In this document: one piece after another, positions 25,430-64,000 of the stretch
Layout: each line of letters starts with the position of its first letter
Position numbering within the stretch: position 1 is the first letter of the stretch
Assembly (NCBI RefSeq): GCF_003853705.1
Contig: NZ_QTQI01000024.1
Coordinates: 1 to 64,000, forward strand
Source: Burkholderia sp. Bp8992
Lineage (GTDB): Bacteria > Pseudomonadota > Gammaproteobacteria > Burkholderiales > Burkholderiaceae
Length of the DNA: 64,000 bases
Direction: 5' to 3'
The notes under the pieces: generated by a model
The model's input: the letters and a program-made list of their open reading frames with translations, nothing else
Databases searched by the model: none
What the model was told of the DNA's origin: nothing
Position numbers and translations under genes: made by a program

Positions 25430-26604
25430 GATGCACCTCTTCCTGTCGTTGCGACGACCGCCGGTTCACCGGCCGCCGGGTCATAGCGGGCGACAAGTTG
25501 CCGTAACCGCGGTTGTTCGGCCGGCAGCGCCAGCGAATCCGCGAGCGCGAGCAACGGCTCTATCCGCCGCGCGACCTTCTCGCGATGGTTGACCGCGATA
25601 TCGGCGATGCGATGCGCTAGAAACGGATTGAGAAAGCGTTCGCGCACGCTGTCGACGTAGCGTTCGGCCGTCTCGCGCAAGCCCAGTGCCACGAATACCG
25701 GCGCGACTTCTTCGCGCCATACCGCTTCGAGACCGTCGCGCAGCCGCGCATCGTTCATCGCGTCCAGCACCGTCTCCGATGCGGCGCGCCCCGCCCCGAG
25801 CCACTGCTCGGCGAGCCAGCTGTGCCCGAGGTTGAGGAAGAACAGCTTCAGGCGCTCGTGGCTGCGCAAATCGTCGGTGACGACGATCTGCGCGTGCCGG
25901 CACGGCAGCGTCATGCCGGCACGCCGTTCGACGGCCCATAGCGCGTAGGGCTCCGCGATCGCGCCGACCGGGTGAAGCGGCTCGGACACGATGCGGTCGA
26001 CGAGCGAATTGACCCACACGCACCGGTTGCGCAGATAGTCGGCGAACGTGTCGGGCAGCCGCCACCGGCACGCGAGATCCAGCACGATCTCGCGCAGCGT
26101 GTCGCCGTTGTTCGTCACCAGTTCGCACGGCAGGATGGACACGCCATCGTCGGGCCGTGCCTGCCAGCGCGCATGGAGCAGCACGAGCAGCTTCGCCGGA
26201 AAGCCGCGCGGTACCTGCCCCGGCTGATCCGGCAGGCCCGCGGTGTCGTGCGGATCGACGCGATAGCCTGCGTCGCCGGTGTTGGACACGATGACGCGCG
26301 CCGTCTCGATCGCGGCACGGCGGATCTCGGCCCAGTCGCGCTCGGCATCCCACGCGCGATGCACGGCGCGGCACTCGATGACTTCGTCGACGACGATGCC
26401 GCCGTCGCGCCCGCGGATCCGGACCGGATAGCGGCCGGATGCGCGCAGCGCGTCGATTCGGGCGCGACTGGCCGGGTTTCCCGTCGTCTGGACGATGCCG
26501 ATACCGCCGACCGCGTGGCCTTCGTCCAGTGCCTGGGAAACGAACAGGTCGACGTGCGCCAGCAGGAAGCGGCTCGTGCCGAACTGCAGGATCGGCGGCG
26601 TCAT
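25426..26604 (-). CDS. Mannitol-dehydrogenase-family oxidoreductase, probable tagaturonate reductase (UxaB-like)
   Basis: This 392-residue NAD-dependent enzyme belongs to the polyol-specific long-chain dehydrogenases. The catalytic KxxxxNxxH signature is present as K253, N258 and H261 (RLKLFFLNLGHSW), with the nucleotide-binding region near the N-terminus (GIGIVQTTGN). Members reduce D-tagaturonate, D-fructuronate or fructose. Because it sits directly before uxaA with a 4-base overlap, reduction of D-tagaturonate to D-altronate is the best fit. It is shorter than E. coli UxaB (about 480), so the exact substrate is less certain. GGAG lies eight bases before the start. Confidence 0.75.
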   Translation of the reverse strand: MTPPILQFGTSRFLLAHVDLFVSQALDEGHAVGGIGIVQTTGNPASRARIDALRASGRYPVRIRGRDGGIVVDEVIECRAVHRAWDAERDWAEIRRAAIETARVIVSNTGDAGYRVDPHDTAGLPDQPGQVPRGFPAKLLVLLHARWQARPDDGVSILPCELVTNNGDTLREIVLDLACRWRLPDTFADYLRNRCVWVNSLVDRIVSEPLHPVGAIAEPYALWAVERRAGMTLPCRHAQIVVTDDLRSHERLKLFFLNLGHSWLAEQWLGAGRAASETVLDAMNDARLRDGLEAVWREEVAPVFVALGLRETAERYVDSVRERFLNPFLAHRIADIAVNHREKVARRIEPLLALADSLALPAEQPRLRQLVARYDPAAGEPAVVATTGRGAS

Positions 26605-55583: not shown

Positions 55584-57689
55584 ATGAGCAGGAGGAACTG
55601 GGCGGCCGCACCGATGGCCATCGTCGTCGGCACGGCCGGCATGGGCGCCGCCGACGCGCAGGAAACGGCGCTGCCCACCATCGAGGTGTCCGCGCAACGC
55701 GCGACGGCGCCGTTCCGCACGCGCGAATCGACGAGCGCGACGCGCAGCGAGGCCGACGTGATGGAGATTCCGTTCGCGGTCAGCAGCGTCGATACGAAGC
55801 TGATCCAGACCGTGGCCGCGACGCGCGGCGACGATCTTTACGACTGGGTCGCGGGCGTCTCGCGCCAGAACAACTTCGGCGGGCTGTGGGACAACTACGC
55901 GGTACGCGGCTTCGCCGGCGACGGCAACACGTCCGGCACCGACTACCTGGTCAACGGCTTTTCGTGGAACCGCGGCATGAGCGTGCCGCGCGACACCGTC
56001 AACCTCGAGCGCATGGAAGTGCTCAAGGGGCCGGCGTCCGCGCTGTACGGCCGCGGCGACCCAGGCGGGATCATCAGCTATACGACGAAGCAGCCGCAAT
56101 TCGCACGCGCGAACACGATCGGCGTGTCGGCCGGCAGCTACGGCGCATTGCGCCAGACCCTCGATTCGACCGGCCCCGTCACAAAATCGCTGGCGTACCG
56201 CTTCGTCGCGATGAACGAGAACAACGGCAGCTTTCGCGACACGGTGTCGAGCAAACGCTACCTGTTCTCGCCGTCGTTCACGTGGGACATCGGCGCGGAC
56301 ACGACGCTCCACTACGAGTTCGAGAGCGCGCGTCAGAGCGCGCCGCTCGATCGCGGCGTGCTGGCGGTCAACGGCCAGCTTGGCGTGATCCCCGCATCGC
56401 GCTTTCTCGGCGAGCCGCGCGACGGCGACTACGACGTGCGCAACACGGGCCACCAGTTCACGCTCGAGCATCGCATCGATTCGGCCTGGTCGATCAACGC
56501 CGGCGTCGCGCAGCGCAACACCGACCTGTCGGGGCGCTCGTCCGAGGCGTTCGCGTTGCAGCCGGACGGCCGCACGCTGTGGCGCCGCTACCGGCAAGTC
56601 GCGTTTCACTCGAACGACCTGCAAGGCCGCCTCGAGACGACCGGCACGTTTCGCACGGGCGGCATCGGCCATACGCTCGTGATGGGCGTCGATGCGTATC
56701 GCTTCAACTACGACCAGTTCGTCACGCGCTCCACGCCGACCGCCGCGGCGCCTTATGCGATCGACATCTTCGATCCGGTCTACGGCCAGCCCGCGCCGAC
56801 GCCGCGCACCGCGACCAACCTGCTCGAACGCGACGACGGTCAGGGCGTCTACGCGCAGGACACGCTCGCATTCGGGCCGCACTGGAAAATCCTGGCCGGG
56901 CTGCGCTGGGATCGCTTCCACCAGTCGATCGACAACCGCCTGAAGGGCGTGACGACCAGCCAGTTGCAGACCGCGGTGAGCCCGCGTATCGGTGTCGTGT
57001 ACGAAATGAGCCCCGCGTGGTCGCTGTATGCGAACACCGCGTATTCGTTCCGGCCGAACAACGGCGCCGACATCAACGGCAACGCGTTCGATCCCGAGAA
57101 GGGCCACGGCTACGAAGCCGGCGCGAAATGGGCCGGCGCGCGCTGGCTCACGACCGTCTCGGCGTTCTACGTGACCAAGCGCAACGTACTGACCGCCGAT
57201 CCGGCGAATGCGGGCTTCTCGCGCGCGGCCGGCGAAGTACGCAGCCGCGGCGTCGAATTCGAATGGAGCGGCGACCTTGGCCACGGCCTGCGCGGCATCG
57301 CCAACTTCGCGTACGTCGACGCCGAGGTCACGCGCGATTCCGTGCTGGCGTCCGGCTCACGCCTCGTCGACGTTCCGCGGCTGAGCGGCAGCGCGCTGCT
57401 GATGTACGAGACCACGCTGCCGTTCGCGGACAAGGCCGGCGCCGGTGCCGGCGTGATCTATGTCGGGCGCCGAGCCGGCAACACGGCCAACACGCAGGAC
57501 GGCTTCGAGCTGCCTGCCTACGCGACCGTGCAGCTCAACGGCTACCTTCAGGTCAACAAGCACTTGCGTGCGTCGGTCGTGCTGAACAACCTGTTCAATC
57601 GCACCACCTACGTCAGCTCGTACAACAGCCTGTGGGTCACGCCGGGCGCGCCACGCAGCCTGTTCGCGTCGCTCGCCTACTCGTTCTAG
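55584..57689 (+). CDS. TonB-dependent siderophore receptor
   Basis: This 701-residue outer-membrane receptor has a signal peptide (to about residue 25, GAADAQE), a TonB-box-like start (LPTIEVSAQ), the plug domain (IPFAVSSVDTKLIQ through VNLERMEVLKGPASALYGRGDPGGIIS) and a 22-strand barrel ending in the required aromatic (SLAYSF). AAAGGAGG lies four bases before the start. A Fur-box-like palindrome stands upstream. No siderophore synthesis gene is nearby, so it probably takes a foreign siderophore. It converges with the ArsB-like gene with a gap of only 31 bp. Confidence 0.9.
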   Translation: MSRRNWAAAPMAIVVGTAGMGAADAQETALPTIEVSAQRATAPFRTRESTSATRSEADVMEIPFAVSSVDTKLIQTVAATRGDDLYDWVAGVSRQNNFGGLWDNYAVRGFAGDGNTSGTDYLVNGFSWNRGMSVPRDTVNLERMEVLKGPASALYGRGDPGGIISYTTKQPQFARANTIGVSAGSYGALRQTLDSTGPVTKSLAYRFVAMNENNGSFRDTVSSKRYLFSPSFTWDIGADTTLHYEFESARQSAPLDRGVLAVNGQLGVIPASRFLGEPRDGDYDVRNTGHQFTLEHRIDSAWSINAGVAQRNTDLSGRSSEAFALQPDGRTLWRRYRQVAFHSNDLQGRLETTGTFRTGGIGHTLVMGVDAYRFNYDQFVTRSTPTAAAPYAIDIFDPVYGQPAPTPRTATNLLERDDGQGVYAQDTLAFGPHWKILAGLRWDRFHQSIDNRLKGVTTSQLQTAVSPRIGVVYEMSPAWSLYANTAYSFRPNNGADINGNAFDPEKGHGYEAGAKWAGARWLTTVSAFYVTKRNVLTADPANAGFSRAAGEVRSRGVEFEWSGDLGHGLRGIANFAYVDAEVTRDSVLASGSRLVDVPRLSGSALLMYETTLPFADKAGAGAGVIYVGRRAGNTANTQDGFELPAYATVQLNGYLQVNKHLRASVVLNNLFNRTTYVSSYNSLWVTPGAPRSLFASLAYSF

Positions 57690-57720
57690 GGCGGCCGGGG
57701 CGGCTGACCGGCTTCGCGCG

Positions 57721-58974
57721 TCAGCCGCCGACCGCGAACCGCGCGGCCAGTGCGAGCAGCAGCGCCGGCAGCATCACGCACGCACCGACCGCGAGGAATT
57801 CGCCGAAACCGACCTTCAACCCTTCGCGCCGGATCGCCGCAAGCCACAGAATCGTCGCGAGCGACCCGGTAACGGACAGGTTCGGGCCGAGATCGACGCC
57901 GATCAGCATCGCGTCGATCACCGCTTGCGGGCTGTGCGCGGCGTCGATCGTCGAGCTCGCGATCAGTCCGGCAGGCAGGTTGTTGATCAGGTTCGACGCC
58001 AGCGCGACCGTGACGCCCGCCGCGGCCGCGGCAGCTTGTTCGCCGCCTTGCGTCAGCTCGCGCAACAGCTCCGCCAGCACGCGCACCGCGCCGGTGCGGT
58101 CGAGCGTCTCGACGACGACGAATAACCCCGCGACGAGTGGCAGCACGCTCCATGAAATCGCACGAACGATCGGCACGCATGCCGCACGATCCCGCATCAG
58201 CACGCACGCGAGCGTGACGACACCCGCGAGCGCCGTGGGCAACCCGAGCGGGCGATCCAGGACCGACACCACCATCAGTGCGACGGCCGTTGCCGCGATC
58301 CCCGCCAGCGCGATGCGTCCGCCGCTCGTCAGCGGCTGCACCGGCAGCCCGGATTCGCAATGCCCGGCAAGCGCACGTCGCTGCACGATCCGCAGCATGA
58401 CGAACGTGCACGCGATCGACACGACGGACGGCACCGCGAAATGCGCGAGCCATACGCCGAGCGACGGCATGCGCGCGCCGTACAGCACCAGGTTCGCCGG
58501 ATTCGAAATCGGCAGCACGAAGCTCGCGGCATTGGCGACGAATGCGCAGCTGTACAGCAGCGGCATCGGATCGGCCTTCGCGCGGCGCGCGGCCGCGAAG
58601 ACGGCGGGCGTCAGCACGACGGCGGTCGCATCGTTCGACAGGAACACCGTGGTGCCGATCCCGACCAGGTAAACCAGCGCGAACAACCGCCGGGGCGAAC
58701 CGTGCGCGAGATTGACGACGTGCGTCGCGACCCAGTCGAACAGCCCCTCGCGACGAGCCACCTCGGACAGCAGCATCATGCCCGTCAGGAACAGGTACAC
58801 ATCGCCGCCTTTCGTAACGGCTTCCAGCGCCTGTGCGACGGGTAGCAAGTTCAACACGACGAGCAGCAGCGCGCCGCTCACGGCCCACGTGGCCTCGGGC
58901 CAACCGAAGGGGCGCGTGATGACGCCCGCGGTGGCGAGCGCGGAAATCAGCCAGGCAAGCGAAACAGGATTCAT
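57721..58974 (-). CDS. SLC13/ArsB-type ion transporter
   Basis: This 417-residue membrane protein has about 11 helices of the ArsB/NhaD (ion transporter) superfamily. The two pseudo-symmetric signature regions are FLSNDATAVVLTPAVFAA and ASNLINNLPAGLIASS, plus SNPANLVLYG. It could export arsenite or antimonite, or move another oxyanion or dicarboxylate. No ars genes accompany it. It is the last of four co-directional genes following a sigma-54 promoter (gap of 37 bp to the MFS gene). ATG 58974 is used; the frame opens at TTG 58980. Confidence 0.83.
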   Translation of the reverse strand: MNPVSLAWLISALATAGVITRPFGWPEATWAVSGALLLVVLNLLPVAQALEAVTKGGDVYLFLTGMMLLSEVARREGLFDWVATHVVNLAHGSPRRLFALVYLVGIGTTVFLSNDATAVVLTPAVFAAARRAKADPMPLLYSCAFVANAASFVLPISNPANLVLYGARMPSLGVWLAHFAVPSVVSIACTFVMLRIVQRRALAGHCESGLPVQPLTSGGRIALAGIAATAVALMVVSVLDRPLGLPTALAGVVTLACVLMRDRAACVPIVRAISWSVLPLVAGLFVVVETLDRTGAVRVLAELLRELTQGGEQAAAAAAGVTVALASNLINNLPAGLIASSTIDAAHSPQAVIDAMLIGVDLGPNLSVTGSLATILWLAAIRREGLKVGFGEFLAVGACVMLPALLLALAARFAVGG

Positions 58975-59011
58975 TGGCAAGTCGACAGAGGCATGAGAAT
59001 CGAAGCGGCTT

Positions 59012-60277
59012 TCAAGACGACGTCGCCGACAGGTCGGCCGGCTTGCCGCACACGTTGCTCAGCGCGCGCGCATGACCGAGCCACAGCGCGAGCGAGCCGG
59101 TCGACACGGCACCGAGTACGACGAACGCGGCCGGATAGCCGAAGTGCTGGGCGAGCACGCCGCCGAGCACGGGACTGAGCGCCGCGCCGATCCCCTGCGC
59201 GGTCGCGACGGCGCCCTGCCCGGCATTCACGCGGCCGGAGCCATGCAGCAGGCGAACGACGAGCGCGGGCACGACCACGCTTTGCAGGCCGGCGCCGATG
59301 CCGTCGAGCACCTGCACCGGCCATACGCCCGCTTCGCTCATCCACAGCGCGGCGACCACGCCGCGTACCGGCAGCACGAGGTACGAGAACAGCAACACGC
59401 GCCAGTAACCGTGCGAGCGAATCAGCCGGGGCGCGAGCCAGGCCGCCGCGATCATCACGCACTGCGCGATGACGATGGTCTGTGCGGTGAACGCGCTCGC
59501 GTTGCTGCGATGCGTGACGACGACGCCCATCCCGTAGAGCGGCAGCATCGCGGCATTGCCGAGATGAAACAGCGCGAGCGATGCGCCGAGCAGAACCAGC
59601 GGCCGGTTTTCGGCGAGCGTGCGCAGGCCGCCGACGCGCGACGTCGACGCCGTGTCGAACGCATCGGGATGCGCAGCCTCCGTTCCCGGCGCGGCGCCGG
59701 CGGGATCGAGTCCGCGCGCGCACGCATGATCGATCGCCTGCCCGGGAATCGCCAGCGTGCTCGCGATGGCGAGGACCGTAAACACACCGACGAGCGCGAA
59801 CACCGCGTCGAATCCGACATGCCAGCCGAGCCATCCGGCGAGCGCCGCACCGGCGACGTTGCCGGCGTGGTTCGCCATCTGGTTGCGCGCGAACTGCCGA
59901 TCGAAACCCTGCCGGCGCACGATGCCGAGCGTCACGCCCGCGACGGCCGGCGCGAGCGCCGCGCCGCTGACCGCGGCCAGGATCTGCGATGCCGCCACCG
60001 CCGGATAGCTGTGGACGAACATCATCGCCAGCGACGCGAGCGCCGTCGCGGCAGTCGCCACGAAGATCAGCGCCCGCTTCGCGCGTACCGCATCGACGAG
60101 CGCGCCGGCCAGCGGCGTCGCGGCCATCGCGGCGAGCCCGGCCAGCGTCATGACCGAGCCGATCGCATCGGCGCCCCAACCGCGCGACAGCAGGATGACG
60201 CCGACGAACGGGCCGAGGCCCGCCTGCACGTCGGCCAGGAAGAAGTTGAGCGATTCGAGCGCGCGCGCCGGTCTCAT
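59012..60277 (-). CDS. MFS transporter
   Basis: This 421-residue, 12-helix major facilitator has helix-1 LESLNFFLADVQAGLGPFVGV, then RGWGADAIGSVMTLAGLAAMAATPLAGALVDA, read here as several hydrophobic blocks. The family is that of drug/metabolite exporters such as YfcJ-like carriers, but no substrate is indicated. Loop signature GALVDAVRAKR lies between helices 2 and 3. It is 21 bp after the 183-residue domain protein and 37 bp before the ArsB-like gene, so it should share the sigma-54-driven transcript. A role in moving whatever the two domain proteins sense or bind is speculative. Confidence 0.82.
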   Translation of the reverse strand: MRPARALESLNFFLADVQAGLGPFVGVILLSRGWGADAIGSVMTLAGLAAMAATPLAGALVDAVRAKRALIFVATAATALASLAMMFVHSYPAVAASQILAAVSGAALAPAVAGVTLGIVRRQGFDRQFARNQMANHAGNVAGAALAGWLGWHVGFDAVFALVGVFTVLAIASTLAIPGQAIDHACARGLDPAGAAPGTEAAHPDAFDTASTSRVGGLRTLAENRPLVLLGASLALFHLGNAAMLPLYGMGVVVTHRSNASAFTAQTIVIAQCVMIAAAWLAPRLIRSHGYWRVLLFSYLVLPVRGVVAALWMSEAGVWPVQVLDGIGAGLQSVVVPALVVRLLHGSGRVNAGQGAVATAQGIGAALSPVLGGVLAQHFGYPAAFVVLGAVSTGSLALWLGHARALSNVCGKPADLSATSS

Positions 60278-60298
60278 GGTCGTGTCACCGTCGCACGC

Positions 60299-60850
60299 TC
60301 ATTCGGCATCCGCATCGACGAGCTCGGCGATCTCGCTCACATCGAGCGTCGTGCCGTGCGGCGTGACGACGCCGTGCCCCCACGCCTGCACATGGATACC
60401 GGGACGCAGGTAATCGTGCAGTGCTTCAGCCGCATGCGGCGGCACCCGCAGCGCGACGCCGCTGGTCAGCAACGCGCCGTTCAACTCGCCTTTCGGGCCG
60501 TGCAGCGCGAACGCGACTTCGCCGCTCAGGTCCATCGGCTTTCGATCCGGTTGCGGCGGCTTCGGGGCGGCGTGCGGGGGCGCGGGCCCGTCGTCGACGA
60601 TGTCGACGCCGTCGCGCCCGGTCAGTTGCACGGCCGCGATCATCTCTGCGCGACGCGGCTTGACGCCGCGCACGCGGATGCGGTCGCCGACCGCGATATG
60701 GCGCGCCAGTTCGCGGCCCAGGTGCGGCGGCACGTGAACCTGCAGGTCGCCGTTCAGGATCACGCCGTCGATGTCTCCGTGCGGATTGAGCAGGAACTGC
60801 GTGACGCGGCCGCGCGTTTCGGGCAGGCAGGCGGGATCGATCCAATGCAT
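60299..60850 (-). CDS. Protein with two copies of an unrecognised beta-rich domain (cytosolic)
   Basis: This 183-residue protein contains two similar segments of about 50 residues: residues 14-65 (GRVTQFLLNPHGDIDG, then VPPHLGRELARHIAVGDRIRV) and 109-158 (GEVAFALHGPKGELNG, then VPPHAAEALHDYLRPG). The pattern is G-x-V-x6-P-x-G-x2-DG-x2-L, V-P-P-H, G-x-R-V. It suggests a small beta-barrel, perhaps OB- or DUF5666-like, but I do not recognise a named family. No signal peptide is seen. A paralogue with a signal peptide is encoded 42 bp upstream. AAAGGAG precedes the start. Function is unknown. Confidence 0.75.
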   Translation of the reverse strand: MHWIDPACLPETRGRVTQFLLNPHGDIDGVILNGDLQVHVPPHLGRELARHIAVGDRIRVRGVKPRRAEMIAAVQLTGRDGVDIVDDGPAPPHAAPKPPQPDRKPMDLSGEVAFALHGPKGELNGALLTSGVALRVPPHAAEALHDYLRPGIHVQAWGHGVVTPHGTTLDVSEIAELVDADAE

Positions 60851-60892
60851 GGCAGGACTCCTTTCGATGGATTTCGGAACAGCACCGCGCGA

Positions 60893-61648
60893 TCAGCGCG
60901 CGACATCGTCATAGAGATTCACGACATGACCCGGCGCGCCGAACGCCGTCGCCTGCAGCGCTTCGCCGTATGCGTTGCGCGTGCCGTAGCCGACGGCGGC
61001 CACGCGCTCGCCGGGTACGAGCAAGTCGCCGAATTGCCGGGCGGCCGGAACGGTCAGCTTGACGACCGCACCGCTGTCGAGCATCACGCCGTCCGGCTCG
61101 CCGCGCGGCGCACGCATCACGCGGCGCACGACGCCGGACACGCTCAAGCGGGCGAGGTTGACGCTGCGCAGCATGGGCGGCGCGGGCGCGGCGGGCACGG
61201 GCGGCCGATCGGACAACGATGCGCCGGTGCCGTCGTTGCGGACCACGCTGGCGCGGATTTCATCGTCACCGCGCCGTTCGCCGGCAACCGTGACGCGCTC
61301 GCCCGCTCGCACGAGCGCAGCCAGTTGCGAACCGAGATGCGGCGGCAGACGGACCAGCGTGCCGTCGGTCAACACGAAGCCGTCGACGGTCCCTTCCGGA
61401 TTGATCGTCAGGCGCGACAGCGTGCCGGAAACCAGCGCATCCGATGCGGTGTCGGTGTCGTTGCCGGGGCCGGCAGGCAAAAGCGCGCGCGGCCGAGGCG
61501 GCGGCGGTGGTGGCGGCATGGCGCCGGCCGGGTCTTCCACACGCGGCGCCGGTGGCACCTGCGCGACGCTGACCGTTGCGACGGCAACGAGCGCGGCAGC
61601 GCAGAGCGTGCGAAACGATCGGCGAACGACGGGCAGGGTGAGCTTCAT
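60893..61648 (-). CDS. Exported protein with two copies of the same unrecognised domain
   Basis: This 251-residue protein has a Sec signal peptide (RR near the start, a hydrophobic core, cleavage near SVAQ at about 29), a linker with a run of prolines (PPPPPPPRPR), then two copies of the domain. Residues about 74-123 hold GTLSRLTINPEGTVDG, then RLPPHLGSQLAALVRAGERV; residues about 172-222 hold GVVRRVMRAPRGEPDG, then GERVAAVG. It should be periplasmic. It lies 27 bp downstream of the expected start point of a canonical sigma-54 promoter, directly after the sigma-54 response-regulator gene. Function is unknown. Confidence 0.75.
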   Translation of the reverse strand: MKLTLPVVRRSFRTLCAAALVAVATVSVAQVPPAPRVEDPAGAMPPPPPPPRPRALLPAGPGNDTDTASDALVSGTLSRLTINPEGTVDGFVLTDGTLVRLPPHLGSQLAALVRAGERVTVAGERRGDDEIRASVVRNDGTGASLSDRPPVPAAPAPPMLRSVNLARLSVSGVVRRVMRAPRGEPDGVMLDSGAVVKLTVPAARQFGDLLVPGERVAAVGYGTRNAYGEALQATAFGAPGHVVNLYDDVAR

Positions 61649-61686
61649 GACGGACTCGGGCGACGGGTTGCGATACATCGATATTT

Positions 61687-61701
61687 GCAATACCCGTGCC
61701 A
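61687..61701 (-). promoter_or_regulatory. Sigma-54 promoter
   Basis: On the minus strand the sequence reads TTGGCACGGGTATTGCA (61686-61702), matching the sigma-54 -24/-12 consensus TGGCAC-N5-TTGC at every position. It lies 39 bp before the start of the exported domain protein. Transcription should begin about 12 bp past the GC element, near 61675. Confidence 0.85.
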
Positions 61702-61752
61702 ACCCGCGGCGCCCCATGTGGCCAAGGGCCGAACGATGAAGCGCGCCGGACA

Positions 61753-61769
61753 TGTCGGATTTCCCGACA
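61753..61769. promoter_or_regulatory. Upstream activator palindrome 1
   Basis: TGTCGGATTTCCCGACA is a 17-bp inverted repeat about 52 bp upstream of the sigma-54 promoter. A near-identical repeat follows 32 bp away. It is the expected place for an NtrC-type activator dimer. Confidence 0.65.
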
Positions 61770-61784
61770 CGTTGCTTCACTGGG

Positions 61785-61801
61785 TGTCGTCAATCCCGAC
61801 A
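61785..61801. promoter_or_regulatory. Upstream activator palindrome 2
   Basis: TGTCGTCAATCCCGACA is a 17-bp inverted repeat with arms TGTCG and CGACA, centred 32 bp (about three turns) from palindrome 1 and placed just past the response-regulator stop. Two sites on one helix face would support activator hexamer formation. Confidence 0.65.
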
Positions 61802-61816
61802 GTCGAAACGGCCCTA

Positions 61817-63174
<1,358 letters not shown>

Positions 63175-63193
<19 letters not shown>

Positions 63194-64000
63194 GGAATTT
63201 CAATCACGAATGCGGCGCCCTCGTCGAGGCGCGCCTGCCCGCCGTGGGCCGCCGCCACTTCGCGGACGACGACAAGACCGAGACCCGTGCCGTCCGCGCG
63301 CCCCGTCACGAAAGGCTCGAAAATCCGCTCGCGCTGCGCGGCCGGCACGCCGGGGCCGCTGTCCGACACGGTGATGCACAGCCAGTCGCGCCCGGCGATC
63401 GGACGCCGCTCGGCGGCGAGCGTGACCGCTCCGCCGTCGCCCGCGTGGTGCAACGCGTTGAGCAACAGATTGTCGAGCGCCCGCCGCATCTGGTCGGGAT
63501 CGAAGGCGGGAAAATCCGACGGCCACGCGAGCCGCTCGCCCTGCCCCGCGAGCGACAACGTCAAGTCGATCGCCTGCTGCTGCGCAAGCTCGCGGTGTGC
63601 TTCGACGACCTGCGCGAGCCACGCGTCGACGTCGACGCGTGTCGCATGCGGGCGCACCGGCTGCGTCAGCGCGAGCAGGCTCGACAACTGCGCATCGATG
63701 CGCTCGATCTGCGCGAGGATCACGCGCAGCGCGTCCTGCTGCCGCCGGCCATCGCCGGCCAGCGCGTTTTCAGCCTTCAGCCGCATCGCACCCATCGGAT
63801 TGCGAATCTCGTGCGCGACCTGCGCGGCGAGTTTGCCCAGCATGCCGAAACGCTCGGCCTGCGCGAGGCGCGTACGGAGCTCGTCGGCCTGCTGTTGCAG
63901 TTGATCAGCGCGCCGCGCCCGCTCGTTGAACGCATCGATGACGCGATCGAGATCGGGTTCGCCGACGTACGGCAGGTGATGCTCGCGACCGTCGGGGCCC
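63175..64000 (-). CDS. Sensor histidine kinase (N-terminal part outside window)
   Basis: The open frame runs off the right edge; 275 codons plus the stop are visible. A coiled HAMP/linker region (RVIDAFNERARRADQLQQQ) leads to the phospho-acceptor H-box (LAAQVAHEIRNPMGAMRLK), the N-box (DNLLLNALHHAG), the D/F region (VSDSGPGVP) and the G-box (GTGLGLVVVREV). All catalytic blocks are present. The sensor domain lies outside the window, so the signal cannot be judged. It overlaps the response-regulator gene by 19 bases, so the two form one operon and a cognate pair. Confidence 0.92.

Follow-up and report, generated by a model that had tools for sequence, protein, structure and literature searches.

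A 64,000-nucleotide stretch of Burkholderia sp. Bp8992 (contig NZ_QTQI01000024.1, positions 1 to 64,000; the window) ends in a gene module that lies entirely on the minus strand: a sensor histidine kinase, an NtrC-type response regulator, a control region, an exported and a cytosolic OB-fold protein, an MFS transporter and an ArsB-like carrier. On the evidence of sequence comparison, this module probably (probability about 0.75) represents a dedicated sigma-54 two-component circuit which drives the OB proteins and the transporters. Regulation through the palindromes and the putative sigma-54 promoter of the control region is well supported; we infer phosphorylation, rpoN dependence, the signal, the direction of transport and the function of the OB proteins. 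The initial annotation had proposed that these genes form one signal-response unit; this proposal is supported by conserved gene sets, by the enhancer/promoter geometry and, above all, by composite sites at divergent or unlinked transporter operons.

Behind the regulator gene lie two 17-bp palindromes whose starts are 32 bp apart. The positions of these palindromes and of the sigma-54 promoter, which had been proposed to follow the NtrC-type regulator, were confirmed, and shuffled sequences support them. The form TGTCG-N7-CGACA occurs twice in the 64 kb against 0.22 expected, a count which none of 100 shuffles reaches; TGGCAY-N5-TTGC is also found twice (0.23 expected; 1/100 shuffles reaches 2). 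Chance motifs are ruled out by the shuffles and the fixed spacing, though the looser palindrome TGTC-N9-GACA is weak alone (3 against 0.76 expected; 7/100 shuffles reach 3). The other TGGCAC-N5-TTGC match, at 25677-25691 (minus strand), lies inside a minus-strand open reading frame (ORF; 26604-25426); it is probably due to chance, and the window scan found no TGTC-N9-GACA near it. At glnA, NtrC has a pair of palindromic sites separated by about three helical turns and located upstream of a -24/-12 promoter; the 32-bp spacing in the module resembles this arrangement. The module differs from the glnA case in signal, kinase and targets; its regulator scores 408.3 with the NtrC model (cut-off 558.6).

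The same geometry is conserved in relatives. The sample comprised 299 Burkholderiaceae genomes, 67 of which contain the OB domain; 76 loci, in stretches of up to 20 kb, were taken from 63 of these 67 (L numbers denote loci and G numbers genomes). Taken together, the layout is much less common than its separate motifs: in 88 sources, 66 sites combine a sigma-54 motif and a palindrome located 50-130 bp upstream of it, compared with 0.4 per shuffled set (five sets). The palindrome lies at 66-71 bp in 56 of the 66 sites and in none from the shuffles. A module gene starts within 350 bp downstream of 65 sites, and at 1320 bp for the remaining one, in L109 (only module genes were mapped). Distances are tighter still among the 57 palindromes located 60-75 bp upstream, 53 of which are 68-70 bp from the promoter. 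The 52 regulator-linked loci hold a sigma-54 motif in 50 cases, a palindrome in 52 and both palindromes in 40; the strict composite (the motif preceded at 66-71 bp by a palindrome) is present in 44. Palindrome pairs are 22-23 bp apart in 44 of 52 cases and 31-32 bp apart in the other eight, i.e. about two or three turns of DNA. Eighteen loci have the cytosolic gene and lack both regulator and exported gene; no sigma-54 motif and no composite was found in these, and a palindrome in only one. Absence of the palindromes and promoter from related genomes had been named beforehand as grounds for abandoning the proposal; the comparison was run, and both elements proved to be conserved.

Inclusion of the transporters in the predicted regulon is supported, because the composite also precedes transporter operons which are divergent from the module or unlinked to it. 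Transporters are divergent from the kinase in six loci, and five of these have a sigma-54 motif and palindrome before them. In L083, L094 and L095 the divergent MFS gene is preceded by the strict composite; L010 and L104 have the sigma-54 motif with only the farther palindrome, before a phosphoesterase or ArsB gene. The strict composite also stands at an unlinked phosphoesterase-ArsB-YdcZ operon (L171) located 94 kb from the module in G097. In G239, a composite is found at a second operon, on another contig, together with a broken exported-type gene. A whole-genome scan with the TGTC form gave 52 sites in the 299 genomes, 43 of them at module genes, with unlinked transporter operons included; the reversed-pattern control gave none. 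The CGTC form (25 genomes, 19 without the TGTC form) gave 13 sites. Twelve are at loci already found; the thirteenth is at a contig end with a kinase and a regulator.

The gene set is conserved as well. The exported gene is present in 51 and the cytosolic gene in 67 of the 76 loci. For 45 of the 51 exported genes the regulator lies within the stretch; for five others it is located elsewhere in the genome (G210, in L173; G116, G073 and G093, in other loci), and the stretch of the sixth, L100, ends with its contig. Among the regulator-linked loci, 50/52 have the kinase (at the threshold used), 42/52 both OB types, 8/52 a phosphoesterase and 10/52 a YdcZ-type exporter. All six genes occur in identical order in L001-L007 and in Caballeronia L009; L010 also has all six, with the transporters divergent. 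Distance correlation with the regulator is highest for the kinase (0.97) and the exported protein (0.93), followed by ArsB (0.81), the cytosolic protein (0.76) and MFS (0.72); these values are uncorrected for species kinship.

By these sequence criteria, the predicted wiring recurs across Burkholderiaceae and on plasmids of Alphaproteobacteria. Plasmids of Methylocystis and Bradyrhizobium carry the kinase and regulator together with an OB protein, MFS and an anion transporter, the last only 26-27% identical. On an Acidiphilium plasmid the kinase and regulator accompany the OB protein; the OB gene of a Methylocapsa plasmid lacks the rest of the module. In a blinder reverse test, the kinase sensor domain was found in 14 plasmid records, each of them also carrying an OB gene; six of 20 OB-bearing plasmid records have no sensor-domain match. 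In evenly drawn samples, the cytosolic profile matches 1/321 genomes at class level, this being the centre genome G001. The exported profile matches 5/300 at order and 6/349 at phylum level, with G001 and G012 in both. Distant exported-type relatives are found in two small genomes of 2.0-2.5 Mb (L139, L140), with no other module part in about 20 kb.

Several observations weigh against a single dedicated circuit. The loci share ancestry and most were retrieved via the OB gene, so that co-occurrence of regulator and OB genes within them is not blind. Only one OB type is present in 10/52 regulator-linked loci (seven cytosolic, three exported); the exported and cytosolic pairing noted in the initial annotation thus stands for 42 of the 52 and fails for the others. 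Neither transporter is obligatory nearby: MFS is found in 45/52 and ArsB in 29/52 regulator-linked stretches. Regulator, exported gene and composite are all missing from 18 loci that have the cytosolic gene, and MFS persists in two of them (L079, L080); neither the cytosolic gene nor MFS is therefore tied only to the circuit. Co-occurrence of the domain with the kinase/regulator pair, which had been suggested as a check, holds for the exported gene (45/51) and breaks down at these 18 loci. The strict composite is missing in eight of the 52 regulator-linked loci (L051, L061, L082, L083, L087, L107, L108 and L117), each of which has one element shifted or altered, and L102 has divergent transporters with no such site before them. 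Nine of the 52 genome-wide sites are off the module (eight in genomes without the domain and one in G204), so the pattern alone is not fully specific. Finally, neither arsR nor arsC was seen in the ORF translations from 52-64 kb, a region in which families were searched for only some of the ORFs.

Cytosolic copies without the regulator are found in varied neighbourhoods; they include L058, L066, L074, L075, L079-L081, L088-L090, L093, L096-L099, L103 and L106.

Table 1. Features of the module and its control region in the window
Feature	Coordinates	Strand	Remarks
Sensor histidine kinase, C-terminal 274 aa, gene cut by window end	63175..63999	-	HisKA, HATPase_c
NtrC-type response regulator with GAFTGA	61817..63193	-	PF00072, PF00158, PF02954; translation
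Upstream enhancer palindrome TGTC-N9-GACA (putative), TGTCGTCAATCCCGACA	61785..61801	.	Centre at about -118 from predicted start
Downstream enhancer palindrome TGTC-N9-GACA (putative), TGTCGGATTTCCCGACA	61753..61769	.	Centre at about -86 from predicted start
Sigma-54 -24/-12 promoter TGGCAC-N5-TTGC (putative), TGGCACGGGTATTGC	61687..61701	-	Predicted start near 61675
Exported protein, 251 aa, signal-like N-terminus, Pro-rich linker, two OB domains	60893..61648	-	
Cytosolic protein, 183 aa, two OB domains, His-rich	60299..60850	-	
MFS transporter	59012..60277	-	PF07690
ArsB/CitMHS-type anion transporter	57721..58980	-	PF02040, PF03600

The exported and cytosolic proteins share a domain, as had been noticed from the sequence alone. 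In profile comparisons, the first repeats of the two proteins match with 99.7% and the second repeats with 98.7% probability; repeats inside one protein match with 96-98%. The domain had been described as repeated and unrecognised. The repeat is real; the domain is recognisable in AlphaFold models (predicted local distance difference test, pLDDT, 90.8 and 86.2) as an OB fold, a small barrel in which a helix separates strands 3 and 4, modelled twice in each protein. Structural matches are to SSB and PriB, and SSB-like OB proteins fill the match lists (VIA-align; two comparisons, mainly one domain of each model). Neither protein reaches a Pfam or NCBIfam cut-off. The exported side is weakly related in sequence to DUF5666 (PF18914), a family of unknown function: of 40 exported relatives, 21 give hits at E <= 0.01, the best at 8e-6, and the window protein itself gives none. 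The module differs from DUF5666 in its tandem double-domain architecture and cytosolic paralogue. The periplasmic OB family BOF/YgiW gave no Pfam hit at E <= 0.01 in any of the 40 exported or 67 cytosolic relatives. Cuticle_1 matches (22/40 exported relatives) were taken as chance; so were the ribosomal S11 and designed-trefoil entries in the sequence search of the PDB, which gave no convincing relative. The hydrophobic N-terminus of the exported protein was judged by eye and alignment; a longer frame from GTG at 61780 also exists. One genome has a fusion of the cytosolic OB protein with a calcineurin-type phosphoesterase in a single 588-residue frame (L101:2873-4636, minus strand).

The regulator (63193-61817) has receiver, sigma-54 AAA+ and Fis helix-turn-helix domains above cut-off; the GAFTGA motif expected of it is present in the translation. 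Its scores are below the curated cut-offs for ZraR (365.5/760) and GlrR (341.2/763). In B. cenocepacia CMCC(B)23006 (L007:16176-17548), the regulator matches as two overlapping pieces, as if frame-shifted. Full-length kinase relatives have about 490-503 residues, with two main hydrophobic regions flanking a periplasmic part (nine examples); signal peptides and membrane segments were assigned by hydropathy. This predicted periplasmic domain is distinctive, with the motif EGGFW...AY.FPTY.GSG.K.D.P.AE and a near-invariant cysteine pair: Cys51 is present in 53/53 and Cys159 in 52/53 kinases, the remaining one having a gap, and the columns of the L001 kinase hold no further periplasmic cysteine in the 53-kinase alignment. 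The pair may form a disulfide, either structural or acting as a switch, or may be a site that is thiol-reactive or binds metal. A PDB search with the sensor part of the L001 kinase (its first 239 residues) gave no hit at E <= 1.

The anion carrier (58980-57721) passes the PF02040 and PF03600 cut-offs and thus shares both families with the ArsB/CitMHS superfamily; its best Pfam score is CitMHS (145 bits), with ArsB at 104. Unlike ArsB proper, it is under the curated subfamily cut-offs (NF011980, 170.9/457; TIGR00935, 149.6/415) and no ars regulator or reductase was noticed nearby. Its closest solved relative by sequence is an arsenical pump membrane protein (120.7 bits), dicarboxylate carriers being at about 33 bits. 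At the operon end of B. stagnalis YJ-2, the match to the ArsB-like gene extends over only 85 residues (L008:12001-12255), compared with 405/419 in the relative L004. A second ArsB-like gene, with 84.6% DNA identity to that of the window, is located at 188466-189490 of NZ_CP091015.1, another B. cenocepacia plasmid.

In the proposed circuit, a membrane kinase with a periplasmic Cys-pair sensor would phosphorylate the regulator, which would bind two TGTC-N9-GACA sites 22-23 or 31-32 bp apart on the same face of the DNA. The nearer site starts about 68-70 bp upstream of the -24/-12 element, where the regulator is predicted to remodel sigma-54 polymerase; phosphotransfer, oligomer formation and ATP-driven opening of the sigma-54 complex are expected because of the protein families. 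The output would consist of both double-OB proteins, the MFS carrier and the ArsB-like anion carrier; a calcineurin-type phosphoesterase and a YdcZ-type exporter would join them in some relatives.

Such a circuit may serve to detoxify or expel a toxic compound encountered in the periplasm (a small molecule, a metal or an oxyanion); on either side of the inner membrane, the OB proteins would bind this toxicant or else its target. This purpose is put forward tentatively; it is favoured because export-type carriers (MFS, ArsB-like, YdcZ-like) appear co-regulated and no catabolic or substrate-degrading gene was seen to travel with the module in annotated relatives. A cation transporter gene and a CHASE3-domain gene adjoin the module in Methylocystis (L135:8699-9325), which is a weak hint towards metals. 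Both OB versions may bind one ligand or metal, as had been suggested; the two features that point this way are the high histidine content of the cytosolic protein and the sensor cysteine pair. A wider reading is rather doubtful. It would hold that the system spread horizontally through Beta- and Alphaproteobacteria; that one ancestral double-OB protein was duplicated into a matched periplasmic and cytosolic pair which buffers or detects the same thiol-reactive metal, oxyanion or ligand on both sides; and that a family of Cys-pair kinases switches this pair and the exporters via a private sigma-54 enhancer code. The matched pair is weakened by the 10/52 regulator-linked loci with one OB type.

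Other purposes can be weighed against efflux. ZraP is a Spy/CpxP-type periplasmic protein, and in a ZraPSR-like envelope stress response the exported OB protein would serve as a chaperone in the periplasm or inhibit the kinase by feedback, with the pumps providing general relief instead of acting on a specific compound. The logic is alike: according to PMC4987338, the enterobacterial membrane kinase and sigma-54 activating regulator ZraSR drive sigma-54 promoters, both their own and that of a periplasmic accessory protein. The catalytic part of the module kinase also scores with the AtoS and ZraS models. However, ZraR and ZraS scores are far under the curated cut-offs (135.6/479 for ZraS, with only the truncated C-terminal 274 residues of the kinase scanned), and family scans of the window protein and its relatives gave no Spy/CpxP match to the exported target. 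The accessory protein is modelled as a double OB fold and usually has a cytosolic twin, and transporters are in the predicted regulon, all of which sets the module apart from ZraSR-ZraP; a stress response of this kind is somewhat unlikely. The module is also close to GlrK-GlrR, which likewise has a sigma-54 activating regulator, with a site given as TGTC-N10-GACA in PMC4987338; the module differs in its spacer, which is one base shorter, in its targets and in the sub-cut-off GlrR score.

DctBD exemplifies circuits for carboxylate uptake. In a circuit of that kind, the CitMHS-type carrier and MFS would import an anion sensed in the periplasm, in keeping with the top Pfam score of the carrier and with the link of sigma-54 to carboxylate transport and assimilation (PMC3162934). 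The lack of substrate-degrading genes beside the module in the annotated relatives and the ranking of the arsenical pump protein above dicarboxylate carriers among solved relatives make uptake unlikely. The OB proteins might instead bind nucleic acid or nucleotides and handle a nucleotide signal together with the phosphoesterase. This is quite improbable: the SSB-like structural matches show just the common OB fold, one of the OB proteins is exported, and the phosphoesterase is found in only 8/52 regulator-linked loci and is absent from the window locus.

No published description of this system was found in a search confined to open-access literature. Through the comparison, genes labelled 'hypothetical protein' in 67/299 Burkholderiaceae genomes become a regulon that can be tested, whose promoter and binding sites are defined and whose targets are few; because the regulon is small, its signal should be findable using one reporter. 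If the circuit is real, a dedicated sigma-54 system with OB-fold outputs in two compartments and pumps would be a new effector set for such switches.

The module region (57700-63999, 6.3 kb) matches a 1.1-Mb B. cenocepacia record with 91.4% identity over 100% of its length; both long DNA matches are on records of 0.87-1.1 Mb filed as plasmids. Relatives of the exported protein are found in B. puraquae, B. sp. MS389, B. anthina, B. stagnalis, B. seminalis and B. ambifaria, and two are on records named chromosome 3. The window was accordingly assigned to the Burkholderia cepacia complex. Convergent with the operon end lies a TonB-dependent siderophore receptor gene (55584-57689, plus strand), which scores 280.2 with TIGR01783 against a curated cut-off of 223.5.
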